Below are positions 1 through 63,700 of a stretch of DNA of 64,000 bases, piece after piece (the stretch's first letter is position 1; every line of letters starts with the position of its first letter). A program made the position numbers and the translations under genes. Below the pieces are notes generated by a model, which was given only the letters and a program-made list of their open reading frames with translations, searched no databases and had not been told where the DNA came from. Source of the DNA: Volvox africanus (lineage: Eukaryota; Chlorophyta; Chlorophyceae; Chlamydomonadales; Volvocaceae); NCBI GenBank assembly GCA_030268105.1, contig BSDZ01000010.1:3138001-3202000 (forward strand), written 5' to 3'.

Positions 1-2467
1 CCCATTTAAATGTGAAACGTGATAATCGCTCCATCCAACGAGCTTGGCGGCGGGATAGCTTATCCGCGCTTTTCTGTTCTTGGAGGTATACCAGTGGTTG
101 GTGATCCGTGATCAACGTTACATCACTGGCGCCTTCAAGGTAACAACGCCACTCTTCCAGGGCTAAGACAGTGCCGAGGCACTCTTGGTCTGTTGTTGAG
201 TAGTTGTACTCTGCCTTATTGAATTTAGAACTGGTATAGGCGACAGGGTGGTCATCCTGCAGGAGGACGGCTCCTGTGCCATGTATTGAGGCATCAGACC
301 AAACCGTGAAAGGTTTATCAAGCTCGGGGAGTTTAAGTACTGGTGCATTTGTCAAGGCATGCTTCACACCCTGGAAGGCTGCCTCGCAGGCTTCGGTCCA
401 GTGGAAGGGCACTTTCTCACTGGTAAGGGTTGTGAGGGGGGCCACAAGGGAGGAATAACCCTGAATAAACCTCCTGAAATAATTGGCTAAGCCAAGGAAC
501 GCCCGCAGTCGCTTAATATCCGTGGGGACAGGCCAGTCTTTAATGACTGTTACTTTGTGGTCGTCCACCTTTAAGCCTTCTTGGCTTACTTTGTGGCCAA
601 GGAAGTGCAGTTCGAACCGGTTGAACTGACACTTCGACAATTTTGCCTTGTATTGGTGCTTTCGGAGCAAGGACAGTACCAAACGGAGGTGCTGTTCATG
701 CTCGGCCGGGGTCTTACTAAAGACCAGTATATCGTCCAAGTACACTAGCACAAATTTGCCAATGTAGTCAGTGAAGACACGATTCATCACTGCTTGGAAC
801 GTTGCAGGGGCATTGGTAAGTCCAAAGCAAAGTACCTTAAACAGAAACTGGCCCATGCCTGGGGCTATGAAGGCCGTTTTCTCCACATCCTGTGGAGAGA
901 TCAGTATTTGATGATACCCCTGCTGTAAGTCCAGGGAGCTGAAAATGGTAGCTCCTTGGAGTTGGTCGAAAAGGTCCGTAATATTGGGCATGGGATACCG
1001 CCGTTTGATGGTCAGTTTATTAAGCGCACGGTAGTCTAAGACCATGCGTAGTCCTTGCCCATTTGCCTTTTCGACAAAGAGAACTGGAGCCCCATAGGGT
1101 GAGGTAGAGGGTTCGATATATCCCTTATTGAGCAGCTCGGTAACTTGCTTCTTGACCTCTTGTTGCTCCAGTTGGGTGAGCCTATAGGCTCGTTTAGCGG
1201 GTGGTATGGCACCATCCACTAAAGGAATCGTGTGACCAATGTCCCGGTCGGGGGGGAGGCTTTGAAGGTCCTCGAATACATCCTTGTATTCCTCCAGTAA
1301 TTCTGATAACTTCGAATTAGCTAGGAGATTATTCCCACCGGAACTGGGGTCAGGAGTTGGAGTGTGTTCCTCTGCTTGCACAAGTAGGAGATAACTCCGT
1401 GCTCCTTTAGCAATTCGTTTGCCTGCTGCTTTCGCAGATACCGTCTCGACAGTAGTCGCTGCATAAAGTGTTGCAGTGACATAGTTCATGAGGGTAATCG
1501 CATCAAGGTTAGCGTCGATACCCGGGGAAGACCAAAGGGATGGCGTAAACGTATACGCATCATTTGGCTTCTTATACACTGTCAGGGTATGAGTTGCCCA
1601 GCACATTGTGGCTTTTCGTTTTCCTAAACAGTCATTAGCCAGGATAATATCAACACCTGGGACATCTTGCTTTAGAACAAGGAGTTTGACTGTGTCATGG
1701 AACTTGTCAATTTGAAGATTGGTAACAACTGAGCCCTCAATCAGTTCTGTGTTGCCATTAGCCACTTTAACTGAGCTGGTAAGTGTGGGTTGGAGAGCAA
1801 GGGCCATTTTCGTAACGGCTGTTATAAACCCGTCTGCGGTACCTTTACAATTGGCACCGGAATCGGCCAAGACTTTGCAGGCCGTTTGGCACAGTTGAGC
1901 ATCAAAGATCATAGAAGGTGTAGAACCAACTATGGAGTTCAAGTGCACGGTAGTGGACGGTCGGTCATACCATAGCTGGAGAGGCCATGGGACACCGGGC
2001 ATAAGCTCCCGTACTCCTGTGCAACTTTTCTTCAGGAACAATTGTTTCCCTGGTGCATATGTTTTGATCAGGCGAAAGCCTGCTGCTCGCATACTGTGCT
2101 CTATTGAGCTCCACTTGGGGACTACAAAGACTGCAGAGGTATTTTCTGGATCTTTGTGTTTGCAGGAGATATAGTGTTTTTGCCATTGAGCAATGTGATT
2201 GTAAGGAGGATTAATCCAAGCAAACTCACCCGCAAGATTATGGGTCGCAAATGGGTTTGATGGAGAGGCAAAACGTGGACAGAGACTATTATCGTTACAT
2301 GTGGCGTCAAAGGTAAATTGACGGCCGAGTTGGGTCTCAACCTGACGGAATTCATCAGGCCGGAACATCCGATCAGTCTGAGGGCTGTCGGTCATGGGCA
2401 ACACAAATTCTCCATCTGGTGCAACCAGTTTAACTGGTTCACATTCCTCCACACGCTTGCCAGCGTC
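1..2467 (-). CDS. Element A Pol (partial): methyltransferase-like, protease, reverse transcriptase, RNase H
   Basis: The frame is open for about 822 codons from just after the TAG at 2468-2470 to the left edge, in the same frame as gag. Domains in order: a DNA N6-adenine-methyltransferase-like module at about 2330-1990, with an FDATCN..CPRF start, the catalytic-type motif WINPPY (NPPY at 2201-2212) and an AVFVVPKW strand; an aspartic protease with active-site DSGA near 1855-1864 and a later DIILANDCLG; an RT with YLDD at 731-742; and an RNase H starting WSDAS near 290, followed by ITDHQPL. Integrase must lie beyond the edge. Protease, RT and RNase H are standard for Ty3/gypsy. The methyltransferase-like module is not, and my assignment rests on the order and spacing of its motifs. 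With no stop inside the window this frame is easy to miss. Confidence 0.85.
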
Positions 2468-4060
2468 CTATTCGTGCATTTTAGATTCGAGCCGGGCAGC
2501 AAGCGCCAACTTCTTTTCCGCCTCAGCCTTGATCGCCTTGGAACAGTCCACTACGTGGTCCGGCCAAGACTGGCCTGGCTTCTTAAAGCCATGGCAATAG
2601 CGGCACCGGGTACTAGGAGGCTTGTCAGAAGTGTGGTCGGTCCGGGGCTTCTTGCTCACGGACTGCCAGCCCTGTTGAAATCGGGAAATAGGGCGTTTTT
2701 GGTAGGGATGTCTGGATTTAGGGGTGGTTACCGTAGCCGCTTTCAGCTCAACGGTGGCAGTCTTATCTTTCCCTGCCTTCCACCGGACCTCTTGGCCGAC
2801 TGCATATAGGATGCATTTATCTAAATCCTGCCAGTCCTTGCCCTAATCGTCGGTTGCACACCGACCCCGAAGTGTTGGAACTAAGCCTTTGATGTACCAG
2901 CTAATCTGGTCGGCTTTATCCATGTCCTTAGCTTCGCGTAGGACATCATGGAAGTGCTGTGTGTACTCAGCAACGGTTTCAGCAGTTTTCATGTCGTATT
3001 CGTGAGAGTGCAAGCGATCCCTTGCTGCCATGGCAGTGTTGCGTTGCGTGTCCCCATATTGCAGGAGAAATGCCGCCCTTAAGGTTTCGCGTGTGAGGGG
3101 TTTCTTGCCCGACTTGTGCATCTCTAGGACATCTGCTGCCCAGACCTGTGCTTTGCCCGTTAAGAAGTACACTATGTGCTCAAATGGGTCCATGTTCATC
3201 AGCTCGAAATATTTCATGAGTACATTGAACCAGGACCGGGTGCAAGTGATGGTGCTATCCTTCTTCCCAGAAAATTTGGGGGGATGTGGAACCCGTCTAT
3301 TAGGGCTTACCTCACTTGGCCGGCTGGATTTTGGGGCGGTTGTCTGAGAATTGCTACCCCCAGCTAGGTGTGCGGTTGCTTCCACCCAAAGGGACTGAAC
3401 CTCCTCGAGTGTTGGCACCGGAACTAGGTGTTTCTCTAGGATGGCTTGCAGCGTTGTTTGCTGGAGGGCATCCTTAGGCAAAAGGGTTGCGATGCTCGAC
3501 CCAGCGATTGTGGAAATAATACCTAGGATCGCTTTTTTGCGTGAGTCGGCCGCTTCAGATGATTGTGAACGCTCCGAAAGGCGTTCGAAAATCTGTTCTA
3601 ATAGGGCTCGCGTGCGGTCCGTATCCGTGCGGAGGGCACCCATCTGATTTTCGAAGGACTCCTTAAGGTGCATGATTTCGCTTTCTAATGCAACAACACG
3701 ATTATGTGTTGTGTTGCGCATTGTTTCTGCGACGTGTTGGGCCGCGCGCGTTTGTTCTGGTGTGCGCTGCGGAAGGCCATTGGGAGGTAACGCGACATCT
3801 CCTTCATCCGGCATTGGTTCTTGGGACCCGCGGATAATAGGAATATTATTATTAAAATTATTGGTGGGAATTACTGGAGCCAAAGGCACCGTTTCCGTAG
3901 GTTCAATGTTTATCCGATGTGGTCGTCGATTGGCGGCTATGGCGGCTAAACGCTCTAGTCGCAAAATTTTATTGGGATTTTTACGTTTAAAACGTAAGAG
4001 TTCCTTCCGCGCTTTTTGCTGCGGAGGATTTGTGGTTGTGGTGGGAGTGTCGCGTGGCAT
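2468..4060 (-). CDS. Element A Gag, split by an internal TAG
   Basis: Starts at ATG 4058-4060 and reads 405 codons to TAG 2843-2845, then continues in the same frame to a second TAG at 2468-2470. The first part has a basic N-terminus, a predicted coiled coil (ALESEIMHLKESF region) and a capsid-like region with retrotransposon-Gag motifs (FLTGKAQ, AEYTQHF, WYIKGLVP, CATDD). The second part (2842-2471) has GKDWQDLDK and a zinc-knuckle-like C-x2-C-x12-H-x3-C, wider than the usual CCHC. The first TAG falls inside the conserved CATD...D(L/Y) stretch of Gag and is probably a CAG-to-TAG mutation or a second recoded codon. The second lies at the gag-pol border, where the other families also have TAG. 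Confidence 0.8.
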
Positions 4061-4094
4061 TGCGCAAGTTTATCTCACCTGAGGAGGATCGTTG

Positions 4095-4114: not shown

Positions 4115-4468
4115 TGTAACAGCTCCTTTCAGTATGCTACTAGATTTGTGCGGAAGCGTAGCTTTTGTAGATTTAGAGATAGCTCGCAAGTAAGTTAGCG
4201 TCGCGAAATTGTACATCTATTGGGAATAATCGGTGACAGCGGAGTCTTGAACTCCGAACAATTAGTAGTGTGATACTAAAATGTCAGGCCTTAGCTCTTC
4301 ACCAGGGTGACTTTAATATTGGCTCACCTAGCCAAGATGTACGGCAATCTTCTTTGCCAATCGCGAAGTTTACTCGTAGTTAGTTTTCGGTTAGGCATCA
4401 TGCTTATTGCATGATTGCCTACCGCTTTATCTGGGCCTATTTCTCTAAGGTAAATGTAGTTTCCTTCA
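4115..4468 (-). repeat. 5' LTR of element A, 354 bp
   Basis: Its boundaries are TG...CA, placed by the primer-binding site on the inner side and by the return of B1 RT coding sequence at 4474 on the outer side. The partner LTR is outside the window, so age cannot be estimated. It has no similarity to the B or E LTRs that I can see. Confidence 0.72.
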
Positions 4469-4473
4469 TGGAG

Positions 4474-8088: not shown

Positions 8089-8505
8089 TGTTGTACCTCT
8101 CCTTTGGGTTTGCTCATAAGTATCTGCGCGTCTGGAGACTTTCGATACCGATGCGTGAGCGCTTGCAAGTACAGCAAGGCAATCGAGAGCAAACAGAGAC
8201 AGCGGAAGACTTCAAGGCAAGAAGAGATATAACTTACAGTCTTACAGATCAAAGCGGTGCAATGGATGTAATCGCCGTCAGCGCCGGAAGCAAGCAATCA
8301 TCACACGGCGGTGACAAGTGAAGTTCAGGCTTAGCTCGGGCTAAGTATAAGAGCGGATAGCAATAATAAGGTTGAACACCGAAGTGTTCTCCAGTATCAA
8401 AATGTCTTATCTTACTTAGCCGTCCTCGCATCTGTTATACTCGCAGCATCGCGACGCTGTACAACTCACACTAGGAGGCCGATCCTAAGTGTGACAACCC
8501 TACTG

Positions 8506-12312: not shown

Positions 12313-15300
12313 CGACTGCAGGGGTCATTGGGCTTGCGTGGCACGCTTGTGGGCTTCTTCGAGCAGACGCTTCATGTCTTGCGAGAAGTTACGTGCCGGT
12401 TCCCACGAGTTGTGCTCGCTGGTATACCCTGTCCACTTGACCAAGTACTTGTGTACTGTCCGCTTACGTCGGTGTCGGCCCACACGACGCGCGCGATAAT
12501 CTAACACCCGCTCCACATCGTAAAACTTCTGTTTACCAGCTATCCAGGTCTCGGGAACTGGTTCAATCGCTGCAGGGGCGTTAGCAGGCTCAGGGACGGG
12601 TTCCTTACCACGATACGGACGGACAAGCGATACGTGAAACGTGGGGTGAATGGTCATATCAGCGGGCAATGCGAGTTCAACAGCCACATTCCCGACCATG
12701 CGCACGACAGGATACGGGCCAATCCAGTGGGGTAAAGGTTTCGGGATCCGTCGGCCAAGGTACGCAAGTTCTTGGTGCTTAGCAACACGAGTTGCCCTTC
12801 CAAAAACGTTACATCCTGCTTGGATTTGTTGTAGTACTCCGTCGTTCGTTGCTGCGCCGCGTCCAAACACGCCTTCGTGTCTGTGATTCGGGACATAAAA
12901 GACTTGGCAAAAAGCTTAGCAGCAGGCACGTTCACTTCCAACTCACGCTACACAGGTACCGCGGGATGAAACCCATAGTTAAGGAAGAACGGACTTTTGC
13001 CTGTAGAGCGGTTAACAGTGTTGTTAAGCGCGCATTCTGCTGCAGTCAAATACGTATCCCAAACGAGGGGTGTGCGACCAGCATAATTGCGCAACATATC
13101 ACCCAACGTGCGGTTTGTGCGTTCGGTTTGACCATCAGTTTGAGGGTGGTACGCTGTGCTCAGGTTGACGCGCATGCCAATTAGCTTGCAGAGCGCTTCC
13201 CAAAACTTAGACGTGAACTGCCCACTGCGGTCCGAGATCACGTTTTGGGGAACCCCATGTAACCGAACCACATTGTCGAAAAACAATCATGCCGTTTGCT
13301 CAGCCGTGCAGGACGATGTGCATGGTGCTAGGTGGACCATCTTAGTCAGGCGATCGACCATTCCAAACACCGCATCATATCTCCCCTCAGTTTTGGGCAG
13401 CACGACTACGAAGTCCATGGAAACACTTTCCCAAGGCGCATCCGGGACAGGCAACGGTTGCAACAACCCATGACCCTTACCGGACAGAGCCTTATTGCGC
13501 TGGCACAGACTGCATGTCTGTACGAAGTTCGCCTCATCCTTAGCCAAACGAGGCCACCAGAATGAACGTTGCACCGACTTGACCAACCGCTTGCTACCAG
13601 GGTGTCCTGCTAAAGGGTCCTTGTGGAACCACGCAAGGATATCGTAGTGTAGCGCATCATCGTTCGGAACGACGATTTGCGTAGCTGCACCCTCCGTCCG
13701 TAGCCAAAGGCCATTCTGCTTGCGAAGGTATTCCACATACATTAGCCAGCTCCAAGAACCAGGCATCTGCGTTGTAGGCAACCTTCAACCGCTCTGCAAG
13801 GTCCGTCGCGATCGGCACCTCCTCGTTACGCGGTCGCAAGACAGGCGCTGCCAAAATTGCAGCGTGTAGCGACGGATGTCGACTGAGAGCATCGGCAATA
13901 TTCAGTTTACCAGAAATGTACTCCCAGGTGCAGTCGAACCTAGCTAGGTATTCCATCCACCTAGCCTGACGGCGGTTCAACGTCGGAACGCTTTGCAAAA
14001 ACGCTAGGGGCTTGTGGTCAGTCTTTAAAGTAAATGGGCGTCCCTTGAGGTAACAGCACCATTCTTTTAAAGCATGCAACACTGCCAGAAGCTCCTGTTC
14101 CCCGGTGGTGTAGCGAATCTCCACACCAGAAAACTTCTTACTCGTGAAGGCGATCAGTCGACCTTCCTGTAACAATACAGCGCCGCTTCCATATACTGAG
14201 GCATCGGAAACAACCTCCACACGAAACGGCAACGAGTAGTCAGGGAATGCGAGGGTGACATCTTCGGCAACGGTTCGCTTGAGCTCTTCGAATGCCCGCT
14301 GGCATTGCGACGTCCACGACTCGAGCGAAACAAAAACGCCTTTGCGAGTTAAGTTAGTAAGTGGGGCCGCAATGATGGAATATTTTTCAATGAACTTTCG
14401 GAAATAATTGGTCAAGCCAAGGAACTTACGCAGCTCCGTGAGGTTCTGAGGCGTGGGCCAATCACCGAACCACGGTGACCTTCCGCGGGTCCATCTTCAC
14501 ACCGGTAGCCGACACAATGTGACCCAAATATTCCACCTGAGGCTGCGCCCAAAAGCATTTGGCGCGTTTAGCGACCAATTGCTCCCGCCTCATCACATCG
14601 AGCACGAGCCGCAGATGCTCCAAGTGCTCCTCGCACGTCTTAGAATAAACCAAGATGTCATCCAAGTAGCAAACAACGAACCTGTTGATAAACGGCCTGA
14701 ACATGCGGTCCATGACCGCCTGAAACGTCGCTGGGGCATTGGTCAACCCAAACGATAGGACCGTATACTCGAAATGACCAAAGGGAGTCCAAAAAGCGGT
14801 TTTCGGGATATCAGAGGCAGCGATGCGAATCTGATTATAGCCCTGTTGCAAGTCAACCGAGGAAAAATAAGCCGAGCCCTTCAGCTTATCCAACAGGTCG
14901 TCAACGCGTGGCAAAGGGTAGCGATTCTTCACCGTGCTCGCATTCAAACCCCGATAATCGATGCACATGCGCTAAGTCCCATCCTTCTTCCCGACAAACA
15001 AAATCGGTGCAGAATACGGGGATGTGCTGGGGCGAATCATACCCTTTGCAAGCAAATCCGTCACCTGGCGCTTCACCTCGTCCAGCTCCAATGGACTCAA
15101 CCTGTACATTGGCCGGGCCGTAGGCTGCGCTCCAGGCATGAGGGGGATTGTGTGATCAACAGGACGCATAGGTGGTAGCCCAGGGATATCTTTGAAGACG
15201 TCCTCATACTGCGCCAGTAGGGCCTCAACCTCAGGATCCGCAGAAGTCTGCGCGGTGGTGGCACTGCAGACCACCCAAGGCCTCAAAAGCAGTCCATGGG

Positions 15301-16390
15301 CACCCTTCCGTAACAAACGGACAGCTTCCTTATGCCCGACTAGCTTCGGTTCTGCTCGCGCGGCCATTGCGGTCACGGCAAAATTAACCATAGGCACCGC
15401 CTCAGCTTTGCCCCCCTCAGGTGTGACATGTTCGAACGACAGGAAAGGTACCTTAATCGACAGAGTACCCTTGCACATATGCAGGGTTGTGGTCTCCATG
15501 TCGATGCGCGCGCGGTACTGTCGTAATGTCGCAGACCCCATTATGTACGGTGCAGTCTCTGCCAAGCACTGCATCACGTACGGCCGGGTCACAACACGCA
15601 AAGGGCCTATCGATAGGCTAAGGGTAATCCTGCCCACGATGGGATGCTTACCCCCGTCAGCAAGGGTAACCTGTGGACAATCAGACGACTCTGGGGTCAA
15701 CCCCAGCGCATTCACCTCTGCAACAGAGATGAAGTCGTCGCTGACACCGGTGTCAACGAGTGCCTTCAGGGTACGGCCATTTAGACCGACCTGAATCACC
15801 GGGACACGGTTATCTACGAGCCACTGCCCAGCAGATAACGTCAGTGCACTTAGGGCGGGTCCGTAACCTACGGCACCCTCATCAGGAGCTTCGTACCAAA
15901 CGTCAACCGAGTAGGATGTCCCTGGCCACGGAGCCAGCATACCCTCCCGATCCACACCATTAAACAAAACGGTGCCCGGCTCGAACCGGTGGACACACCG
16001 CATACCCCTTAACGATGCCTCTGCCTTGCGCCGACAGAAAGCAGGGAGTAATACACATGCGGCGGTGCCTGGATATTGACGCCTACATCTCCTGTAAACG
16101 GCCAACTGTTCCGACATCTCACGCAGAGACGAGGGGATGAACAAAACCACGTGGTTTGACAGATCGATAGACGACAGGGGACGGCGAGGTGTAAACAGAT
16201 TACACAGCGGATCGAAGCAGAGAAGTCCCGTGCGTCCGTCAAGCGTGATGTATCACGCAATGACTCGCTCAATGTGTCCAAGTACGCAAGGCAGCAATGC
16301 CTTCATGGCTGGCCGTAAGGATGACCACCGACCACGTGTTAGTTCAGCAATCCCGGGTGGTGCCCCCTCCGCAGGAACCAGGGCAAACCC
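12313..16390 (-). pseudogene. B2 pol (protease to chromodomain), disrupted
   Basis: Read from the right: protease (LVDTGVSDDF, so DTGA is DTGV) and the protease-RT linker (14972-16150); RT (14462-14968, YLDD present); connection/RNase H (13657-14415); integrase (13287-13781 and 12948-13286, with TDGQTERTN); and GPY plus chromodomain (12325-12700, [17 protein letters not shown]). Breaks include TTG-to-TAG at 14971-14973 in RT, frame changes near 14440 and 13750, a stop near 13287 and one near 12948. The same TAG is present in J. Confidence 0.85.
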
Positions 16391-22755: not shown

Positions 22756-23991
22756 ATGTCCGCGGAACACGACGATACGCCGCACACTAGCCTAGCTAGC
22801 CAACCCGATTTTGTTGTGGCTGCTAGAGCACCGGATAGAGGTCTTGAGACTGTTGGCGCGCGAGCCACTCAAGAGCCCCTTTTCCTTCAGACCCCTGTTC
22901 ACTTAATTGTGCCGCATTCAGCAGTGAACACGAATATGGACAACACTGCTGGACCAAGGGTTCTGCCATTACCTCAAGCTCGAGGGCATGATGACATCCC
23001 TGAGGTGATGAGATTGTCGATTCCCGTTCCTAGGCTCAATATTTCGCTGACTGACAAGACACCAGGGCATAGCATAGCCGATGCAACTCATGCGTACGTG
23101 CGTGACGCTAAAAAGTATCTCCAGGCTGTTCATGGTGGCGATAATGACGGTATCAGGTGTCTCTTCGTTGGTAACACCCTCGAGGGCTCAGCGAAGGACT
23201 GGTATCGCAATTGGACCAACGCCCGGGGCAACTATACTTTTGATGAGTTGGTCGCCACTTTGCTCGCACGATTCGCTACTGAGGTTCAAGCACGCGATGT
23301 GGAAGCTCGTAAGGTTTTGGCAGCCGGTAGCTACCACATGCGTCGGGATGAAAATGTACCTGCGTACCAGTCACGCTTCGAAGCACTTGTGACTCCCATT
23401 GCTGACCTCACTGAATCCGAGCGTGTCTTTTGGTTTAGGCGAGGCCTGACGAAACTTTTGGCTAAATGGTGCGCTACTGACTTGGTTGGAGCGCAGATCA
23501 AGTCGTATGATGCTTTGGTCGCTTTTGCTAAGGGTACGGAGATACGACTACTTGCCGGTGAGGAAGAAGTCAAGTCTGCCCCTCGTGCAAATGCCGTGCA
23601 AGTGCAGGATCCGCTTGGGGAAGCCGTAGCTCTTGACCAGGACTTCGGAGCGACCCGCCCCACGCCTACTGCCGCGACGCGACGCAGCAACCGGCAACGC
23701 CAGGCGCGCGGGGGCGCTAGCTCGGGTGTCCGTGGGTCAGGAGGAGCTGGTCCGAGCTCGGACCCGGCTAAAAACAGGAAGCATGGTGGTGCGCCGTCGA
23801 CGGCAGCCGCACAGCGTTCCAACCCCAATGCGAAGCAGACTCGCACGGACGACACGTATATGCCAAAATGGAATTGCAATCGATCCGAATTCGAGCGTCG
23901 GAAATTGGCCAACGTTTGTCTACGGTGTGCGGAGAGCCATTCCACGAAGGATTGCCCTCTAATGCCGCCGTTTGTACCTCAGCCGAAATAG
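22756..23991 (+). CDS. F Gag
   Basis: ATG 22756 (MSAEHDDTPHTSLASQPD) to TAG 23989-23991, about 411 residues, matching the C copy nearly throughout. Capsid region: AYVRDAKKYLQAVHGGDND, DWYRNWTNARG, YQSRFEALVTPIADL, LLAKWCATDL. A basic Arg/Ser/Gly-rich linker leads to one CCHC zinc knuckle, CLRCAESHSTKDC. After the TAG the frame stays open into pol. Confidence 0.9.
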   Translation: MSAEHDDTPHTSLASQPDFVVAARAPDRGLETVGARATQEPLFLQTPVHLIVPHSAVNTNMDNTAGPRVLPLPQARGHDDIPEVMRLSIPVPRLNISLTDKTPGHSIADATHAYVRDAKKYLQAVHGGDNDGIRCLFVGNTLEGSAKDWYRNWTNARGNYTFDELVATLLARFATEVQARDVEARKVLAAGSYHMRRDENVPAYQSRFEALVTPIADLTESERVFWFRRGLTKLLAKWCATDLVGAQIKSYDALVAFAKGTEIRLLAGEEEVKSAPRANAVQVQDPLGEAVALDQDFGATRPTPTAATRRSNRQRQARGGASSGVRGSGGAGPSSDPAKNRKHGGAPSTAAAQRSNPNAKQTRTDDTYMPKWNCNRSEFERRKLANVCLRCAESHSTKDCPLMPPFVPQPK

Positions 23992-26900
23992 GGGCTTGCC
24001 CGGGTTCCTGTGGAGGGGGCACCACCTGGGATTTCTGAACTAACACGTGGTCGGTGGTCATCCTTACGGCCAGCCGTTAAGGCATTGTTGCCTTGTGTAC
24101 TTGGACACATCGAGCGAGTCATTGCGCGACGCATCACGCTTGACGGACGCACGGGACTTCTCTGCTTCGACCCGTTGTGTAATTTGTTTACACCTCGCCG
24201 TCCCCTGTCGTCTATCGATCTGTCTAACCACGTGGTTTTGTTCATCCCCTCGTCTCTGCGTGAGATGTCGGAACAGTTGGCCATATACAGGAGGTGTAGG
24301 CGTCAATATCCAGGCACCGCCGCATGTGTTTTACTCCCCGCTTTCTGTCGGCGCAAGGCAGAGGCATCGTTAAGGGGTATTCGGTGTGTCCACCGGTTCG
24401 AGCCGGGCACCGTTTTGTTTAATGGTGTGGATCGGGAGGGTACGCTGGCTCCGTGGCCAAGCACATCCTACTCGGTTGACGTTTGGTACGAAGCTCCTGA
24501 CGGGGGTGCCGTAGGTTACGGACCCGCCCTAAGTGCACTGACGTTGTCTGCTGGGCAGTCGCTCGTAGATAACCGTGTCCCTGTGGTTCAGATCGGTTTG
24601 AATGGCCGTACTCTGAAGGCACTTGTTGACACCGGTGCCAGCGACGACTTCATCTCTGTCGCAGAGGTGAATGCGCTGGGGTTGTCCCCAGAGTCGTCTG
24701 ATTGTCCACAGGTTACCCTTGCTGACGGGGGTAAGCATCCCATCGTGGGCAGGATTACCCTTAGCCTATCGATAGGCCCTTTGCGTGTTGTGACCCGGCC
24801 GTACGTGCTGCAGGGCTTAGCAGAGACTGCACCGTACATCATGGGGTCGTCGACATTACGACAGTACCGCGCGCGCATCGACATGGAGACCGCAACCCTG
24901 CATATGTGCAAGGGTACTCTGTCGATTAAGGTACCTTTCCTGTCGTTCGAACATGTCACACCAAAGGGGGGCGAAACTGAGGCGGTGCTGATGGTTAATT
25001 TCGCTGTGACCGCAATGGCCGCGCGAATCGAACCAGAGCTAGTCGGGCGTAAGGAGGCCGTCCGTTTGTTACGGAAGGGTGCCCACGGACTGCTTTTAAG
25101 GCCTTGGGTGGGCTGCAGTGCCACCACCGCGCAGACTTCTGCGCATGCTGAGGTTGAGGCCCTACTGTCGCAGTATGAGGACGTCTTTAAAGATATCCCT
25201 GGCCTACCACCTATGCGTCCTGTTGATCACACAATCCCTCTCATGCCTGGAGCGCAGCCTACGGCCCGGCCAATGTACAGGTTGAGTCCATTGGAGCTGG
25301 ACGAGGTGAAGCGCCAGGTGATGGATTTGCTCGCGAAGGGTATGATACGCCCCAGCACATCCCCGTATTCTGCACCGATTTTGTTTGTCGGTAAGAAGGA
25401 TGGGACCTTGCGCATGTGCATTGAGTACCTGGGGTAGAATGCGAATACGGTGAAAAATCGCTACCCTTTGCCACGCGTTGACGACCTGTTGGATAAGCTG
25501 AAGGGCTCGGCTTATTCCTCAATTTACTTACAACAGGGCTACAATCAGATTCGCATCGCTGCCTCTGATATCCCGAAAAACGCTTTTCGGACGCCCTTCG
25601 GTCACTTTGAGTATACGGTCCTATCGTTTGGTTTGACTAATGCCCCTGCGACGTTTCAGGCGGTTATGGACCGAATGTTTAGGCCGTTTATCGACAGGTT
25701 CGTTGTTTGCTACCTGGATGACATCTTGGTATATTCTAAGACGCGCGAGAAGCACTTGGAGCATCTTCGGCTCGTGCTCGACGTTATGAGGCGGGAGCAA
25801 TTGTTTGCTAAACGCGCCAAATGCTTTTGGGCGCAGCCTCAGGTGGAATATTTGGGCCACATTGTGTCGGCCACCGGTGTGAAGATGGACCCGCGGAAGG
25901 TCGCCGTGGTTTACGATTGGCCCGCGCCTCAGAACCTCACGGAGCTGCGTAAGTTCCTTGGCTTGACCAATTATTTCCGAAAGTTCATTGAAAAATATTC
26001 CATCATTGCGGCCCCGCTTACTATCTTAACTCGCAAAGGTGTTTTCGTTTCGCTCGAGTCATGGACGTCGCAATGCCAGCGGGCATTCGAAGAGCTCAAA
26101 CGAATCGTTGCCGAAGATGTCACCCTTGCATTCCCTGATTACTCGTTGCCATTTCGTGTTGAGGTAGTGTCTGATGCCTCAATATTTGGAAGCGGCGCTG
26201 TATTGTTACAGGAAGGGCGACCGATCGCCTTCACGAGTAAGAAGTTTTCTGGTGCGGAGATTCGCTACACCACCGGGGAACAGGAGCTTCTGGCAGTGCT
26301 GCATGCTTTAAAGGAATGGCGCTGTTACCTCGAGGGACGCCCGTTTACTTTAAAGACTGACCACAAGCCCCTAACGTTTTTGCAAAGCGTTCCGACGTTG
26401 AACCGCCGTCAAGCTAGGTGGATGGAATATCTAGCTAGGTTCAACTGCACCTGGGAGTATATTTTTGGTAAATTGAATATTGCCGATGCTCTCAGTCGAC
26501 ATCCGTCGCTACACGCTGCAATTTTGGCAGCGCCCGTCGTGCGGCCGTGTAGCGAGGAGGTGCCGATCGCGATGGACCTCGCGGAGCGGTTGAAGGTGGC
26601 CTACAACGCAGACGCCTGGTTTGCGGACCCGGCTAATGTAGAAAACCTTCGCAAGCAGAATGGCCTTTGGCTACGGACGGAGGGTGCAGCTACGCAAATC
26701 GTCGTTCCGAACGATGATGCGCTACGCTACGACATCCTTGCGCGGTTCCACGAGGACCCGTTAGCAGGACACCCTGGTAGCAAGCGATTGATCGAGTTGG
26801 TGCAACGTTCCTTTTGGTGGCCTCGTTTGGCTAAGGATGAGGCGAACTTCGTCCAGACATGCAGTCTGTGCCAGCGCAATAAGGCTTTGTCCGGTAAGGG

Positions 26901-33925: not shown

Positions 33926-34228
33926 TTGTTTAATTGCTTTTACTTAGATTGCTGCACTTGTTGTGTAAGTGTACGCTCTGAGTCGCAGGTAATCTCAGTG
34001 CACCGGCATTGCTTGCCGCGGCGACTGAGACCGGCGTTCGTCCGGACCAGTTGGCGACTCTCATTGCCCAAACTACGGAGATCAGGACTCAGCTGGGCAA
34101 TTACTTGCTGAGTTTGCTGAATCTTCTCAAGAGTACTGTCGGTAGGCTCACCGAATCGCTTTGTACTCTTGCCTTTGCGATAGAAGTCGGCTTCTATTAC
34201 GCAAAACTAGGGTATCGTTTCGTGCTCC

Positions 34229-35464: not shown

Positions 35465-38400
35465 GGGCTTGCCCGGGTTCCTGCGGAGGGGGCTCTACCT
35501 GGGTTTTCTGAACTAACGCGTGGTCGGTGGTCATCCTTACGGCCAGCCGTTAAGGCATTGTTGCCTTGTGTACTTGGACACATCGAGCGAGTCATTGCGC
35601 GACGCATCACGCTTGACGGACGCACGGGACTTCTCTGCTTCGACCCGTTGTGTAATTTGTTTACACCTCGCCGTCCCCTGTCGTCTATCGATCTGTCTAA
35701 CCACGTGGTTTTGTTCATCCCCTCGTCTCTGCGTGAGATGTCGGAACAGTTGGCCATGTACAGGAGGTGTAGGCGTCAATATCCAGACACTGCCGCATGT
35801 GTTTTACTCCCCGCTTTCTGTCGGCGCAAGGCAGAGGCATCGTTAAGGGGTATGCAGCATGTCCACCGGTTCGAGCCGGGCACCGTTTTGTTTAATGGTG
35901 TGGATCGGGAGGGTACGTTGGCTCCGTGGCCACACCTATCCTACTCGGTTGACGTTTGGTACGAAGCTCCTGATGGGGGTGCCGTTGGTTACGGGCCCGC
36001 CTTAAGTGCACTGACGTTGTCTGCTGGGCAGTCGCTCGTAGATAACCGTGTCCCTGTGGTTCAGATCGGTTTGAATGGCCGTACTCTGAAGGCACTTGTT
36101 GACACCGGTGCCAGCGACGACTTCATCTCTGTCGCAGAGGTGAATGCGCTGGGGTTGTCCCCAGAGTCGTCTGATTGTACACAGGTTACCCTTGCTGACG
36201 GGGGTAAGCATCCCATCGTGGGCAGGATTACCCTTAGCCTATCGATAGGCCCTTTGCGTGTTGTGACCCGGCCGTACGTGCTGCAGGGCTTAGCAGAGAC
36301 TGCACCGTACATAATGGGGTCGTCGACATTACGACAGTACCGCGCGCGCATCGACATGGAGACCGCAACCCTGCATATGTGCAAGGGTACTCTGTCGATT
36401 AAGGTACCTTTCCTGTCGTTCGAACATGTCACACCAAAGGGGGGCGAAACTGAGGCGGTGCCTATGGTTAATTTCGCTGTGACCGCAATGGCCGCGCGAA
36501 TCGAACCAGAGCTAGTCGGGCGTAAGGAGGCCGTCCGTTTGTTACGGAAGGGTGCCCACGGACTGCTTTTAAGGCCGCGGGTGAGCTGTTGTGTCACCAC
36601 CGCGCAGATTTCTGTGGATCCTGAGGTTGAGGCCCTACTGTCGCAGTATGAGGACGTCTTTAAAGATATCCCTGGCCTACCACCTATGCGTCCTGTTGAT
36701 CACACAATCCCTCTCATGCCTGGAGCGCAGCCTACGGCCCGGCCAATGTACAGGTTGAGTCCATTGGAACTGGACGAGGTGAAGCGCCAGGTGACGGATT
36801 TGCTCGCGAAGGGTATGATACGCCCCAGCACATCCCCGTATTCTGCACCGATTTTGTTTGTCGGTAAGAAGGATGGGACCTTGCGCATGTGCATCGATTA
36901 CCGGGGGTTAAATGCGAATACGGTGAAAAATCGCTACCCTTTGCCACGCGTGGACGACCTGTTGGATAAGCTGAAGGGCTCGGCTTATTTTTCCTCAATT
37001 GACTTACAACAGGGCTACAATCAGATTCGCATCGCTGCCTCTGATATCCCGAAAACCGCTTTTCGGACGCCCTTCGGTCACTTTGAGTATACGGTCCTAT
37101 CGTTTGGTTTGACTAATGCCCCTGCGACGTTTCAGGCGGTTATGGACCGAATGTTTAGGCCGTTTATCGACAGGTTCGTTGTTTGCTACCTGGATGACAT
37201 CTTGGTATATTCTAAGACGCGCGAGGAGCACTTGGAGCATCTGCGGCTCGTGCTCGACGTTATGAGGCGAGAGCAATTGTTTGCTAAACGCGCCAAATGC
37301 TTTTGGGCGCAGCCTCAGGTGGAATATTTGGGCCACATTGTGTCGGCCACCGGTGTGAAGATGGACCCGCGGAAGGTCGCCGTGGTTCGCGATTGGCCCG
37401 CGCCTCAGAACCTCACGGAGCTGCGTAAGTTCCTTGGCTTGACCAATTATTTCCGGAAGTTCATTGAAAAATATTCCATCATTGCGGCCCCGCTTACTAA
37501 CTTAACTCGCAAAGGCGTTTTCGTTTCGCTCGAGTCGTGGACGTCGCAATGCCAGCGGGCATTCGAAGAGCTCAAACGAATCGTTGCCGAAGATGTCACC
37601 CTTGCATTCCCTGATTACTCGTTGCCATTTCGTGTTGAGGTAGTGTCTGATGCCTCAATATTTGGAAGCGGCGCTGTATTGCTACAGGAAGGGCGACCGA
37701 TCGCCTTCACGAGTAAGAAGTTTTCTGGTGCGGAGATTCGCTACACCACCGGGGAACAGGAGCTTCTGGCCGTGCTGCATGCTTTAAAGGAATGGCGCTG
37801 TTACCTCGAGGGACGCCCGTTTACTTTAAAGACTGACCATAAGCCCCTAACGTTTTTGCAAAGCGTTCCGACGTTGAACCGCCGTCAAGCTAGGTGGATG
37901 GAATATCTAGCTAGGTTCAACTGCACCTGGGAGTATATTTCTGGTAAATTGAATATTGCCGATGCTCTCAGTCGACATCCGTCGCTACACGCTGCAATTT
38001 TGGCAGCGCCCGTCGTGCGGCCGCGTAGCGAGGGGGTTCCGATCGCGACGGACCTCGCGGAGCGGTTGAAGGTTGCCTACAGCGCAGACGCCTGGTTCGC
38101 GGACCCGGCTAATGTAGAAAACCTTCGCAAGCAGAATGGCCTTTGGCTACGGACGGAGGGTGCAGCTACGCAAATCGTCGTTCCGAACGACGACGCGCTA
38201 CGCTACGACATCCTTGCGCGGTTCCACGAGGACCCGTTAGCAGGACACCCTGGTAGCAAGCGATTGATCGACTTGGTGCAACGTTCCTTTTGGTGGCCTC
38301 GTTTGGCTAAGGATGCGGCGAACTTCGTCCAGACATGCAGTCTGTGCCAGCGCAATAAGGCTTTGTCCGGTAAGGGCCATGGGTTGTTGCAACCGTTGCC

Positions 38401-41478: not shown

Positions 41479-42704
41479 ATGTCCGTGGAACGTGACGATA
41501 CACCGCACACTAGCTTAGCTAGCCAACCCGATTTTGTTGTGGCTGCTAGAGCTCCGGATAGAGGTCTTGAGACTGTTGGCACGCGAGCCACTCAAGAGCC
41601 CCTTTTCCTTCAGACCCCTGCTCACTTAATTGTGCCGCATTCAGCAGTTAATACGAATATGGACAACACTGCTGGACCAAGGGTTCTGCCGTTACCTCAA
41701 GCGCAAGGGCACGACGCCATCCCTGAAGTGATGAGATTGTCAATTCCCGTTCCTAGGCTTAATATCTTGCTGACTGAAAAGACACCAGGCACTAGCATAG
41801 CCGATGCAACTCGTGCGTACGTGCGTGACGCTAAAAAGTATCTCCAGGCTGTTCATGGTGGTGATAATGATGGTATCAGGTGTCTCTTCGTTGGTAACAC
41901 CCTCGAGGGCTCAGCGAAGGACTGGTATCGCGAATGGACCACTGCCCGGGGCGAATATACTTTTGACGAGATGATCGCCACTCTGCTCGCACGGTTCGCT
42001 ACTGAGGTGCAAGCACGTGATGTGGAGGCTCGTAAGGTTTTGGCGGCCGGTAGCTACCACATGCGTCGAGGTGAAAATGTACCTGCGTACCAGTCACACT
42101 TCGAAGCACTTGTGACCCCCTTTGCTGACCTCACCGAGACCGAGCGTGTCTTTTGGTTTAAGCGAGGCCTGACGAAACTTTTGGCTAAATGGTGCGCTAC
42201 TGACTTGTCTGGGGTGCCGATCAAGTCGTATGATGCCTTGGTCACATTTGCTAAGGGTACGGAGATACGACTACTTGCCGGTGAAGAAGAAGTCAAGTCC
42301 GCCCCTCGTGCAAATGCCGTGCAAGTGCAGGATCCGCTTGGGGAAGCTGTAGCTCTCGACCAGGAACTTGGAGTGACCCGCCCCTCGCCTACTGCCACGA
42401 CGCGATGCAGCAACCGGCAACGCCAGGCGCGCAGGGGCACTAGCTCGGGTGTCCGTGGGTCAGGAGGAGCAGGTCCGAGCTCGGACCCAGCTAAGAGCAG
42501 GAGGCGTGGTGGTGCGCCGTCGACGGCAGCCGCACAGCGCTCTGACCCCAATGAGAAGCGGACTCGCACGGATGACTCGTTTATGCCAAAATGGAATTGC
42601 AATCGTTCTGAGTTCGAGCGGCCAATGTTTGTCTACGGTGCGCGGAGAGTCATCCTACGAAGGATTGCCCGTTACTGCCGCTGTTAGGACCTATGCCGAA
42701 ATAG
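41479..42704 (+). pseudogene. D gag, frameshifted near the zinc knuckle
   Basis: ATG 41479 (MSVERDDTPHTSLASQPD), then collinear with C Gag until about 42620. There GAGCGTCGGAAATTGGCC is shortened to GAGCGGCC, shifting the frame and losing the knuckle. The expected gag-end TAG is at 42702-42704. Confidence 0.88.
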
Positions 42705-45700
42705 GGGCTTGCCCGGGTTCCTGCGGAGGGGACACCGCCCGGGATTTCTGAACTAACACGTGGTCGGTGGTCATCCTTATGGCCAGCCATGAAGGCATTG
42801 TTGCCTTGCGTACTTGGACACATCGAGCGAGTCATTGCGTGACGTATCACGCTTGACGGACGTACGGGACTTCTCTGCTTCGATCCGTTGTGTAATCTGT
42901 TTACACCACGCCGTCCCCTATCGTCTATCGATCTGTCTAACCACGTGGTTTTGTTCATCCCCTCGTCTCTGCGTGAGATGTCGGAACAGTTGGCCGTAGA
43001 CAGGAGATGAAGGCGTCAATATCCGGGCACCGCCGCATGTGTATTACTCCCTGCTTTCTGTCGGCGCAAGGCAGAGGCATCGTTAAGGGGTATGCGGTGT
43101 GTCCACCGGTTCGAGCCGGGCACCGTTTTGTTTAATGGTGTGGATCGGGAGGGTATGCTGGCTCCGTGGCCAGGGACATCCTACTCGGTTGACGTTTGGT
43201 ACAAAGCTCCTGATGAGGGTTCTGTAAGTTACGGACCCGCCCTAAGTGCACTGACGTTGTCTGCTGGGCAGTCGCTCGTAGATAACCGTGTCCCTGTAGT
43301 TCAGATTGGTTTGAACGGCCGTACTCTGAAGGCACTTGTTGACACCGGTGCCAGCGATGACTTCATCTCTGTCGCAGAGGTGAATGGGCTGGGGTTGACC
43401 CCAGGTTCCTCTGATTGTCCACAGGTTACCCTTGCTGACGGGGGTAAGCATCCCATCGTGGGCAGGATCACCCTTAGCCTATCGATAGGCCCTTAACGTG
43501 TTGTGACCCGGCCGTACGTGCTGCAGGGCTTAGCAGAGACTGCACTGTACATAATGGGGTCGTCGACATTACGGCAGTACCGCGCGCGCATCGACATGGA
43601 GACCGCAACCCTGCATATGTGCAAGGGTACTCTGTCGATTAAGGTACCTTTCCTGTCGTTCGAACATGTCACACCAAAGGAGGGCGAAACTGAGGCGGTG
43701 CTTATGGTTAATTTTGCTGTGACCGCAATGGCCGAGAGAATCGAACCAGAGCTAGTCGGGCATAAGGAAGCCGTCCGTGTGTTACGGAAGAATGCCCACG
43801 GACTGCTTTTGAGGCCACGGGTGGGCTGTTGTGCCACCACCGCGCAGACTTCTGCGGATCCTGAGGTTGAGGCCCTACTGGCGCAGTATGAGGACGTCTT
43901 CAAAGATATCCCTGGGCTGCCACCTATGCGTCCTGTTGATCACACAATCCCTCTCATGCCTGGAGCGCAGCCTACGGCCCGGCCAATGTACAGGTTGAGT
44001 CCATTGGAGCTGGACGAGGTGAAGCGCCAGGTGACGGATTTGCTCGCGAAGGGTATGATTCGCCCCAGCACATCCCCGTATTCTGCGCCGATTTTGTTCG
44101 TCGGTAAGAAGGATGGGACCTTGTGCATGTGCATCGATTACCGGGGGTTAAATGCGAATACGGTGAAGAATCGCTACCCTTTGCCACGCGTTGACGACCT
44201 GTTGGATAAGCTGAAGGGCTCGGCTTATTTTTCCTCGATTGACTTACAACAGGGCTATAATCAGATCCGCATCGCTGCCTCTGATATCCCGAAAACCGCT
44301 TTTCGGACGCCCTTCGGTCACTTCGAGTATACGGTCCTATCGTTTGGTTTGACTAATGCCCCTGCGACGTTTCAGACGGTCATGGACCGCATGTTCAGGC
44401 CGTTTATCAACAGGTTCGTTGTTTGCTACTTGGATGACATCTTGGTTTATTCTAAGACGCGCGAGGAGCACTTGGAGCATCTTCGGCTCGTGCTCGACGT
44501 TATGAGGCGGGAGCAATTGTTTGCTAAACGCGCCAAATGCTTTTGGGCGCAGCCTCAGGTGGAATATTTGGGCCACATTGTGTTGGCCACCGGTGTGAAG
44601 ATGGACCCACGGAAGGTCGCCGTGGTTCGCGATTGGCCTGCGCCTCAGAACCTCACGGAGCTGCGTAAGTTCCTTGGCTTGACCAATTATTTCCGAAAGT
44701 TCATTGAAAAATATTCCATCATTGCAGCCCCGCTTACTAACTTAACTCGCAAAGGCGTTTTCGTTTCACTCGAGTCATGGACGTCGCAATGCCAGCGGGC
44801 ATTCGAAGAGCTCAAGCAAACCGTTGCCGAAGATGTCACCCTCGCATTCCCTGATTACTCGTTGCCGTTTCGTGTTGAGGTAGTGTCTGATGCCTCAGTA
44901 TTTGGAAGCGGCGCTGTATTGTTACAGGAAGGGCGACCGATCGCCTTCACGAGTAAGAAGTTTTCTGGTGCGGAGATTCGCTACACCACCGGGGAACAGG
45001 AGCTTCTGGCAGTGCTGCATGCTTTAAAGGAATGGCGTTGTTACCTCGAGGGACGCCCATTTACTTTAAAGACTGACCACAAGCCCCTAACATTTTTGCA
45101 AAGCGTTCTGACGTTGAACCGCCATCAGGCTAGGTGGATGGAATACCTAGCTAGGTTCGACTGCACCTGGGAGTACATTGCTGGTAAACTTAATATTGCC
45201 AATGCTCTCAGTCGACATCCGTCGCTACACGCTGCAATTTTGGCAGCGCCCCTCTTGTGACCGCAGAACGAGGAGGTGCCGATCGTGACGGACCTCGCAG
45301 AGCGGTTGAAGGTTGCTTACAATGCAGATGCCTGGTTTTCGGAGCCGGCTAATGTAGAAAACCTTCACAAGCCTTTGGCTACGGACGGAGGGTGCAGCTA
45401 CACAAATCGTCGTTCTCAACGATGACGAGCTACACTACGACATCCTTGCGCGGTTCCACGAGGACCCATTAGCAGGACACCCTGGTAGCAAGCGGTTGGT
45501 CGAGTTGGTGCAACGTTCATTCTGGTGGTCTCACTTGGCTAAAGATGCGGCGAACTTCGTACAGACATGCAGTCTGTGCCAGCGCAATAAGGCTTTGTCC
45601 GGTAAGGGCCATGGGTTGTTGCAACCGTTGCCTGTCCCGGATGCGCCTTGGGAAAGTGTTTCCATGGACTTCGTAGTCGTGCTGCCCAAAACTGAGGGGG

Positions 45701-54000: not shown

Positions 54001-55235
54001 TCCACAGGCCGCATTGGAGGCTTACCAGGGACCTCCTGGAATATATCTGCATATTCCTGTAACAGGGCCTCAAGCTCAGGGTCAGTGGCATCAGCTGGGA
54101 TAGAAGTTGCATTCAGGTGCAACTTGGGCCGTACTAGTAAAGCATGGGCCCCCTTGCGAATCATGCAAACTGCTGCTTTTCTGCCAACAACTTCAGGGTC
54201 AGTGTGCTGACAGATAGCAGTGGTTGCATAATTAAAGCAAGGCGCAGGTGTCATCTGATCTGGTGGCTGTCCGGCAGTAGTAAAGGGTACCTTGCAGACT
54301 AGATTCCCCTTGCGCAGGCACAAAGATTTAGACTCATAGTCAAGGACAGCCCCATACTGTGCTAGCGTGGAAGAACCCAAGATATACGTGGCAGCGTCAG
54401 TTAGCTCAGGCAACACGTATGGGCGGACATTTTACCTTAAAGGACCTGCAGATAGACGAAGATTAACCTGCCCCAAGATAGCCTGCTTACCCCCATCAGC
54501 AAGGGTAACTTCTGACCAGGAGCATGGGCTAGGTTTCAGGCCAAGCTGCGTAACCACTGATGCCGAAATGAAATCATCACTGGCTCCAGAGTCGGCTAGG
54601 GTGGTGAACGTACGACCTGCCGTACTTACGGTGATCAGAGGTACGCCAGCACCTATCAGGGCAGCAGCTTTAGGCAAGCAGAGAACTGAAATACAGGGTT
54701 CAGTCTCAGGCAAGCCCTCCTGAACCGGTTTAGGAGCAGCAAACCAGACGTCAACAGAGTATGGGCTTCCAGGGAGCTGAACGACCTCACCTGCCATATC
54801 AAGGCTATGGAAAAGAGCCGTCCCTGGATTAAACCTTAAGACCCGTTGCATTCCCGACAGAAAAGAAGGGTTGCGTCGGGACAAATACTCAGGAAGCAAG
54901 ATGCATGCTGAGGTATCAGGGTGTTGACGTTTGCATGCCCTAAAGTGAGCTAATTGCTTCTGTAGCTCGCAGAGTGAAGAGGGAGTGAACAAGATAGTAT
55001 GCCCACCCAAGTTAGCGGAGGATAGGGGGCGACCTTGAGGCTCAAACAGATTACAAAAGCCATCAAAGCCGGCACGGACAGTTCGTGCATCAAAAGAAAA
55101 ACGTCTCCCTATCACCTGCTCCACTTGGTTTAAAACAGAGGGCAAAAGAGCCCGTACTGCACGGCACTTTGCTACCATCTGGCCCACAGCAAAGACCCCA
55201 GGTGGTGATCCCTCTATACCAGCCTGGGCAAGTTC
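51095..55235 (-). pseudogene. H pol: protease, RT, RNase H, integrase, chromodomain, disrupted
   Basis: Follows gag in frame after TAG 55236-55238. Protease [12 protein letters not shown] (DSGA); RT with YLDD near 53510; RNase H VITDASIHGTGGV; integrase finger HDGPLAGHPGC...CDLCQ, MDFIVALP, SDRGTQF and TDGQTERVN; GPY (FVGPYPV); chromodomain YLVKWSGYSSEHNSWEP; end TGA 51095-51097. Breaks: TAA near 54430 (GPLR*NVRPYVL), a run of ten G at 53754-53763 shifting the frame, a 70-bp tandem duplication at 51912-52051 in integrase, and a one-base loss near 51721. Confidence 0.88.
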
Positions 55236-60713: not shown

Positions 60714-63700
60714 CCGTATTGGACGCCGCTGCTTCCGGTTTGTAATCGTTAAATTGCTTTTGTCTAGGTTGCTGCACTTGTTGTGTAAGTGTACGCTCTG
60801 AGTTGCAGGTAATCTCAGCGCTCCGGCATTGCTTGCCGTGACGACTGAGACCGGCTTTCGTCCGGACCAGTTGGCGACTCTTATTGCCCAAACCATGGAG
60901 ATTAAGACCCAGCTGGGCAAGTACCTGCTGAATTTGCTAAATCTCCTCAAGAGTACTGTCGGTAGGCTCACCGAATCGTTTTGTACTCTTGCCTTCGCGA
61001 TAGAAGTCGTCTTCTATTATGCAAGCCTAGGGTATTGTTTCGTGTTCCATGTCTGCGGAACGCAACGATACACCGCTCACTAGCTTACGTAGGGTACGCC
61101 TAGGGTACGCAGATACGACTCCTTGCTGGTGAAGAAGAAGTCAAGTCTGCCCCTCGTGCAAATGCCGTGCAAGTGCAGGATCCGCTTGGGGAAGCTGTAG
61201 CTCTGGACCAGGAACTTGGAGCTACCCGCCCCGCGCCTACTGCCGCAACGCGACACAGCAACCGGCAACGCAAGGCACGCGGGGGCGCTAGCTCAGGTGT
61301 CCACGGGTCAGGAGGAGCAGGTCCGAGCTCGGACCCAGCCAAGGGCAGGAAGCGTGGGGGCGCGCCGTCGACGGCAGCCGCACAGCGCCCTGACCCCGAT
61401 GCAAAGCAGACTCGCACGGATGACCCGTTGATGCCAAAATGGAATTGCAATCGTCCCGAGTTCGAACGTCGGAAAGCGGCCAATGTTTGTCTACGGTGCG
61501 CGGAGAGCCATCCTACCAAGGATTGCCCGTTACTGCCGCTGTTAGGACCTATGCCGAAATAGGGGTTTGCCCGGGTTCCTGCGGAGGGGGCACCGCCCGG
61601 GATTTCTGAACTAACACGTGGTCGGTGGTCATCCTTACGGCCAGCCATGAAGGCATTGTTGCCTTGCGTACTTGGACACATTGAGCAAGTCATTGCGTGA
61701 CGCATTACGCTTGACGGACGCACGGGACTTCTCTGCTTCAATCCGCTGTGTAACCTGTTTACACCACGCCGTCCCCTGTCGTCTATCGATCTGTCTAACC
61801 ACGTGGTTTTGTTCATCCCCTCGTCTCTGCGTGAGATGTCGGAACAGTTGGCCGTATGTAGGAGATGTAGGCGTCAATACCCGGGCACCGCCGCATGTGT
61901 ATTACTCCCTGCTTTCTGTCGGCGCAAGGCAGAGGCATCGTTAAGGGGTATGCGGTGTGTCCACCGGTTCGAGCCGGGCACCGTTTTGTTTAACGGTGTG
62001 GATCGGGAGGGTATGCTGGCTCCGTGGCCAGGGACATCCTACTCAGTTGACGTTTGGTACGAAGCTCCTGATGAGGGTTCTGTAAGTTCAGAACCCGCCC
62101 TAAGTGCACTGACGTTATCTGCTGGGCAGTCGCTCGTAGATAACCGTGTCCCGGTGGTTCAGATCAATTTAAACGGCCGTACTCTGAAGGCACTCGTTGA
62201 CACCGGTGCCAGCGACGACTTCATCTCTGTCGCAGAGGTGAATGCGCTGGGGTTGACCCCAGAGTCGTCTGATTGTCCACAGGTTACCCTTGCTGACAGG
62301 GGTAAGCATCCCATCGTGGGCAGGATCACCCTTAGCCTATCAATAGGCCCTTTGTGTGTTGTGACCCGGCCGTACGTGCTGCAGGGCTTAGCAGAGACTG
62401 CACCGTACATAATGGGGTCGTCGACATTACGGCAGTACCGCGCGCGCATCGACATGGAGACCGCAACCCTGCATATGTGCAAGGGTACTCTGTCGATTAA
62501 GGTACCTTTCCTGTCGTTCGAACATGTCACACCAAAGGAGGGCGAAGCTGAGGCGGTGCTTATGGTTAATTTTGCTGTGACCGCAATGGCCGAGAGAATC
62601 GAACCAGAGCTAGTCGGGCGTAAGGAAGCCGTCCGTTTGTTACAGAAAGGTGCCCACGGACTGCTTTTGAGGCCACGGGTGGGCTGCAGTGCCACCACCG
62701 CGCAAACTTCTGTGGATCCTGAGGTTGAGGCCCTACTGTCGCAGTATGAGGACGTCTTCAAAGATATCCCTGGGCTGCCACCTATGCATCCTGTTGATCA
62801 CACAATCCCTCTCATGCCTGGAGCGCAGCCTACGGCCCGGCCAATGTACAGGTTGAGTCCATTGGAGCTGGACGAGGTGAAGCGCCAGGTGACGGATTTG
62901 CTCGCAAAGGGTATGATACGCCCCAGCACATCCCTGTATTCTGCGCCGATTTTGTTTGTCGGTAGAAGGATGGGACCTTGTGCATGTGCATCAATTACCG
63001 GGGGTTAAATGCGAGTACGGTGAAAAATCGCTACCCTTTGCCACGCGTTGACGACCTGTTGGATAAGCTGAAGGGCTCGGCTTATTTTTCCTCGATTGAC
63101 TTACAACAGGGCTATAATCAGATCCGCATCGCTGCCTCTGATATTCCGAAAACCGCTTTTCGGACTCCCTTCGGTCACTTCGAGTATATGGTCCTATCGT
63201 TTGGGTTGACCAATGCCCCTGCGACGTTTCAGGCGGTCATGGACCGCATGTTTAGGCCGTTTATCGACAGGTTCGTTGTTTGCTATCTGAATGACATCTT
63301 AGTTTATTCTTAGACGCGCGAGGAGCACTTGGAGCATCTTCGGCTTGTGCTCGACGTGATGAGGCGGGAGCAATTGTTTGCTAAATGCGCCAAATGCTTT
63401 TGGGCGCAGCCTCAGGTGGAATATTTGGGCCACATTGTGTCGGCCACCGGTGTGAAGATGGACCCGTGGAAGGTCGCCGTGGTTTGTGATTGGCCCGCGC
63501 CTCAGAACCTCACGGAGCTGCGTAAGTTCCTTGGCTTGACCAATTATTTCCGAAAGTTCATTGAAAAATATTCCATCATTGCGGCCCCACTTACTAACTT
63601 AACTCGCAAAGGTGTTTTCGTTTCGCTAGAGTCGTGGATGTCGCAATGCCAGCGGGCATTCGAAGAGCTCAAGCAAACCGTTGCCGAAGACGTCACCCTC

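Follow-up and report, generated by a model that had tools for sequence, protein, structure and literature searches.

The 64,000-nucleotide stretch of Volvox africanus DNA analyzed here (the window; contig BSDZ01000010.1, positions 3,138,001 to 3,202,000 of the forward strand, assembly GCA_030268105.1) carries at one end a retrotransposon with long terminal repeats (LTRs), element A. The polyprotein of this Ty3/gypsy element contains, upstream of its protease, a domain similar to Dam-type N6-adenine methyltransferases. This assignment, proposed in a preliminary description from the letters alone, is supported by profile searches, profile-profile comparison, and fold prediction, which agree with each other. 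Element A is an LTR Ty3/gypsy chromovirus, given the order protease, reverse transcriptase (RT), RNase H, integrase, the C-terminal chromodomain, and the LTRs. A DIRS retroelement was also considered and is ruled out by the protease, the integrase, and the location of the methyltransferase domain before the protease.

A gypsy chromovirus with an adenine-type methyltransferase-like domain appears to be new. No report of an adenine-type methyltransferase in LTR/gypsy elements was found in searches limited to Creative Commons-licensed papers of PubMed Central. In the excerpts consulted, Dam-type domains are described for DIRS retrotransposons (PMC3783388, PMC3266345), and cytosine methyltransferases for gypsy, DIRS, and long interspersed nuclear elements (PMC5890265).

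Similarity of the domain to Dam-type methyltransferases

A 172-residue piece of the window copy matches the Pfam family PF05869 Dam with an E-value of 1.2e-5 (1.2e-4 for the whole 822-residue frame) and the PHROG family phrog_111, DNA methyltransferase, with an E-value of 4.8e-6; for TIGR01712, phage N6-adenine methyltransferase, the E-value of the window copy is 0.001. Three relatives from public databases, P0004, P0001, and P0006, which are 59%, 38%, and 30% identical to this piece, match both PF05869 and TIGR01712. When P0001 was compared with phages by tblastn, 88 records were obtained at E-values up to 10, the best listed at 0.02. The matches listed fall in the methyltransferase part of P0001. 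Among the 20 records listed, 14 carry a methyltransferase annotation at the match, three are hypothetical there, and three are unannotated.

Profile-profile alignment by hhalign of 11 gypsy domains with six phage Dam proteins yielded a probability of 96.8%, an E-value of 2.6e-10, and a score of 68.5 over 109 columns, with NPPY placed over NPPY and FDA over LDA. Because hhalign E-values refer to single pairs, column shuffles provide a fair yardstick; the best of 100 shuffles scored 19.8, and the reversed profile 16.1. The predicted fold of the domain (pLDDT, the model confidence score, 77.6) matches phage DNA N-6-adenine-methyltransferases in BFVD and, in the PDB, PCIF1, Erm, KsgA/Dim1, METTL5, and E. 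coli Dam, PCIF1 being the best solved match. As modelled, the domain belongs to the class I methyltransferases by fold; the preliminary description would have been refuted by a lack of profile or structural matches, and both kinds were found. The phage and bacterial enzymes behind PF05869, TIGR01712, and phrog_111 share with it the order FDA...N..C...NPPY, the spacing, and the predicted fold. In contrast to them, it is part of a retroelement polyprotein, scores below the curated cut-offs in the window copy, and has lost the catalytic motif in several families.

The domain had initially been placed at 1990-2330, between a Gag zinc knuckle and the protease, in an uninterrupted frame. Its location and neighbors are as described, all quoted motifs were located, with NPPY intact, and the frame is indeed open; only the extent needed correction, the domain being slightly wider (Table 1).

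Conservation of the domain and loss of the motif

The domain piece was compared with the whole genome (140,993,249 bases, 126 contigs). Among the 150 scored rows, 54 match at 94% identity or more over the full piece, 51 of them free of internal stops (hand count); these 54 belong to the family of element A, fam1. The remaining rows include some fam1 fragments or diverged copies (50-99% identity), and the rest are other gypsy families at 27-36%. All 18 fam1 rows tallied read NPPY; L045 and L046, broken copies at a greater distance that read NSAY, are left out of this count. The window copy has three residues fewer in the loop after FDA than the other aligned fam1 rows, and the same short loop is seen in the independent relative P0004. 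Between fam1 and a 68%-identical lineage, the ratio of nonsynonymous to synonymous substitution rates (dN/dS) is 0.23-0.24 for the domain and 0.23 for the protease. The sister copies keep the segment; had they shown it to be non-conserved filler, the preliminary description would have been refuted.

Some fam1 copies are evenly spaced: four at G000 C32:477250-524919, about 15.7 kb apart, and six at G000 C100:1965737-1983508, 3.1-3.7 kb apart. Both groups suggest tandem arrays.

Other families retain the domain with a different motif at the NPPY site: TPSS in fam2a, IPSS in fam2b, fam2c, and fam2d, DPSS or NPSS in fam3, and NARL in fam4 (one fragment). Among the public relatives, P0004 has NPPY, P0001 NPPF, P0006 NPPV, and P0005 VPLS. 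The aspartate of the FDA motif is kept in all seven families tabulated. Families fam2a and fam2d are abundant, with at least 150 rows each at 96% identity to the query or more and many frames open for 1353-1356 residues; the predicted fold of the fam2a domain again has N6-adenine methyltransferases as its best matches. In the window alone, the domain is found in one copy of fam2a and in five or more of fam2d. It thus recurs across a group of gypsy families as a standard N-terminal component of Pol and is not a one-off insertion. An accessory domain is likewise fixed at the N-terminus of Pol in another gypsy lineage, the domain and the host being different.

In the phylogenetic tree, a 100/100 branch separates the phage enzymes from every gypsy domain, and another 100/100 branch unites the TPSS, IPSS, and VPLS families in a single clade, while the branching among the NPP families is partly unresolved. 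Retention of NPPY in fam1, together with loss of the motif but not of the domain in commoner relatives, suggests that the two fates considered in the preliminary description, an active enzyme and a structural relic, may both occur, in different families.

One member of fam2a is already present in protein databases: P0003 (VaNZ11_007807, partial [Volvox africanus]), entered there as a hypothetical protein, corresponds to part of a fam2a Pol and comprises the methyltransferase-derived domain and the protease. Its identity to the second domain copy of the window is 97%.

Gag/Pol border, origin and role of the domain

The domain frame begins immediately after a stop codon. TAG followed by G directly precedes it in 24 of the 26 fam1 rows (three loci counted twice), in 16 of the 18 fam2a and fam2b rows, and in three fam2d copies of the window; the four families share the stop identity and the next base despite different flanking codons. 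The border between Gag and Pol looks like a candidate UAG readthrough system. In gammaretroviruses, Gag and Pol lie in one frame, separated by a single UAG followed by G. The same single in-frame UAG-G is observed here, but the first Pol domain is methyltransferase-like, whereas in gammaretroviruses it is the protease.

The following evolutionary scenario may account for these observations. A phage or bacterial Dam-type (PF05869-like) domain would have been captured by the ancestor of one group of Ty3/gypsy chromoviruses of green algae and become fixed as the leading domain of Pol, immediately behind the UAG, so that synthesis of Gag-Pol would need ribosomal readthrough. Judging by this layout, the domain would be present only in Gag-Pol, a minor product, and would be packaged along with the protease, RT, and integrase. 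In fam1, where NPPY is kept, adenine methylation has most likely continued, with nucleic acid of the element itself, probably new complementary DNA (cDNA), as the substrate before or at integration. Such methylation could mark new copies as permissive or active chromatin. In the abundant TPSS and IPSS families catalysis was probably lost, and the domain may persist in Pol as a module without catalysis that serves folding or the binding of nucleic acid. We consider this scenario, taken as a whole, probable, although with modest confidence.

A more specific version is put forward tentatively. Here, a Dam-type enzyme within chromovirus Gag-Pol would write N6-methyladenine (6mA) on the cDNA of the element. 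Among the descendants of this element, a minority would have retained the enzyme, and hundreds of copies would carry it in a dead form, as a standing structural domain of Pol. If so, one genome holds the catalytic and the dead-domain states side by side. In Chlamydomonas, a relative of this alga, according to excerpts of PMC12695648, 6mA is found on expressed genes and 5-methylcytosine on transposons, and MT-A70 matches are present in the V. africanus genome. With a chromovirus carrying an adenine-type domain, a 6mA system in the host lineage, and multicopy families both with NPPY and without the motif, the use of the enzyme to the element becomes directly testable.

Several results weigh against the scenario of a captured and, in fam1, still active enzyme. 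The window piece remains under the curated cut-offs (25.4 versus 28.1 bits for PF05869, 18.6 versus 97.05 for TIGR01712), and its PF05869 match spans only profile positions 19-85 of 169; P0001, alone among the relatives, passes the PF05869 cut-off, and barely (28.2 bits). Because of these scores, we treat the domain as a remote, derived relative of the phage Dam family and not as a member. A Foldseek search against the PDB alone gave no match at an E-value of 0.001 or better (best 3.9e-3), and the loop after FDA is modelled at low confidence (residues 53-56 and 59-65). For the RNA after the TAG, nested folds are not significantly better than those of shuffles (z from -0.24 to -1.88). The persistence of other families of the genome after loss of the motif shows that elements of this kind can, in general, do without catalysis. 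Finally, dN/dS among young fam1 copies is 0.68 for the domain, near the 0.64 of the protease and indicating weaker constraint than on RT (0.43).

The low Pfam score of the window copy, taken alone, would also fit a chance resemblance, with NPPY occurring by accident in an unrelated gypsy linker of the ordinary kind. Such a coincidence has hardly any probability, as it is contradicted by the independent relatives that match the same models, by the failure of the shuffled controls, and by the agreement of the predicted fold. A more serious competitor holds that the domain is non-catalytic in all families including fam1, being no more than a Dam-derived fold that separates Gag from protease and has a structural or nucleic-acid-binding role, with the NPPY of fam1 a remnant not yet lost. 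The related families that keep the domain with TPSS, IPSS, VPLS, DPSS, or NARL are consistent with it, as is constraint on the domain of young fam1 copies that is no stronger than on the protease. However, four lineages whose domains differ by as much as 70% have all retained NPP followed by Y, F, or V, and two of them, fam1 and P0004, have NPPY itself. Moreover, across the six pairs among the NPP lineages, average similarity is higher in the domain than in the protease (differences of 0, +13, -1, +12, +6, and +9 points), whereas in pairs involving motif-less families it is mostly equal or lower in the domain, the lineage pairs in this comparison not being independent. We therefore regard general loss of catalysis as possible but rather unlikely. 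The main catalytic alternative is activity on RNA, either the genomic RNA of the element or a cap-proximal adenosine. It draws on the likeness to PCIF1, the best solved structural match, a cap-specific adenosine N6-methyltransferase that acts on capped mRNA; sequence identity in the aligned chains is 9-15%. This alternative seems unlikely to us.

As to the origin of the domain, DIRS-type elements, whose Dam domain follows RNase H, are also present in this genome. In the DIRS/PAT-like elements L009-L028, the Dam-type domain reads GCPPL where phage enzymes read NPPY, and Pfam scores these GCPPL domains above the NPPY-bearing gypsy domain. Derivation of the gypsy domain from such a methyltransferase, via recombination between elements, would agree with the co-occurrence and with the PF05869 matches of both domains. 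Yet each matches phage Dam (probability 95.9 for DIRS and 96.8 for gypsy), while comparison of the DIRS and gypsy profiles fails (probability 3.4, E-value 0.013), although the DIRS profile consists of 19 near-identical local sequences and its miss is weaker evidence than the phage matches. The motif and the position after RNase H, not before the protease, also differ. Such a transfer is very improbable, and the simplest reading of these comparisons is that the gypsy and DIRS domains represent two independent captures from the phage/bacterial pool. The parallel with DIRS drawn in the preliminary description thus holds as an analogy but, within the limits of the narrow DIRS profile, not as kinship.

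Judging by the excerpts cited above, DIRS elements are likewise retroelements with a Dam-like domain in Pol, but they have a tyrosine recombinase, no protease or DDE integrase, and the methyltransferase after RNase H, in contrast to the LTRs, protease, integrase, chromodomain, and preceding methyltransferase domain of element A. KnitGypsy-Dnmt3 of Klebsormidium, as presented in the excerpts of PMC5890265, is also a green-lineage gypsy element with a DNA methyltransferase captured in Pol, for which purifying selection is reported. Its enzyme, in contrast, is a cytosine-5 methyltransferase of the Dnmt3 type, called structurally unrelated to Dam there, and its capture was a separate event.

Layout of element A and other features of the window

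Table 1. Positions of element A features and of further domain copies in the window
Feature	Position	Strand	Remarks
5' LTR, element A	4115..4469	-	355-bp direct repeat, 97.7% identical; partner outside window, contig 3136041-3136395
Gag frame, element A	2843..4069	-	408 aa stop to stop, ends at in-frame TAG; PF03732 Retrotrans_gag E 2.5e-6, 28.0 bits (cut-off 24.1)
Zinc-knuckle-like Gag segment	about 2545..2605	-	CX2C-X12-H-X3-C, by eye
In-frame TAG, Gag/Pol border	2468..2470	-	next base G; candidate readthrough stop
Pol frame	2467..2	-	directly after TAG; open 822 aa in window, 1345 aa in contig
N6-adenine-methyltransferase-like domain	1958..2371	-	Pol aa 33-170; PF05869, phrog_111, hhalign to phage Dam, predicted fold
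FTFDA, acidic first-strand motif	2303..2317	-	sequence and hhalign
NPPY catalytic motif	2201..2212	-	aligned with phage NPPY
AVFVVPKW	2111-2134	-	read in domain frame
GFRLIKTYAPG	2048-2080	-	read in domain frame
Retropepsin-type protease	1538..1876, limits approximate	-	active-site DSGA 1853-1864; PF08284 weak in window copy (0.11)
Reverse transcriptase	587..1069	-	PF00078 6e-33
RNase H	14..400	-	PF17917 1e-30, PF17919 7.6e-30
Other in-frame TAG-G between Gag and Pol	23989-23991, 35462-35464, 42702-42704		
fam2a domain copy	54714..55235	-	TPSS for NPPY; protease next
fam2d domain copy	35465..35986	+	IPSS; start of open 1353-aa Pol (protease, RT, RNase H, integrase, chromodomain); Gag 34211-35464
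Second fam2d domain copy	23992..24513	+	
Third fam2d copy	61701..62192	+	domain start absent from frame
Fourth fam2d copy	14972..16252	-	domain (start absent from frame), protease, start of RT region; by eye
Fifth fam2d copy	42702..43496	+	broken frame

The PF08284 protease match, weak in the window copy, is clear in the relatives P0001, P0004, and P0006 (6.8e-6 to 5.4e-12). The integrase and chromodomain are located 3' of RNase H, beyond the window; L029 shows Integrase_H2C2 (85.4 bits), a weak rve match, and Chromo. The gag of the window copy has an extra in-frame TAG at 2843-2845, and several sisters without it have a Gag frame open for up to 533 residues. The zinc-finger spacing of fam1 Gag, read by eye, differs from the CX2CX4HX4C of fam2a and fam2b. 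Elsewhere in the window, a 941-residue open frame at 8475-11300 (+) appears by eye unlike the surrounding gypsy elements.
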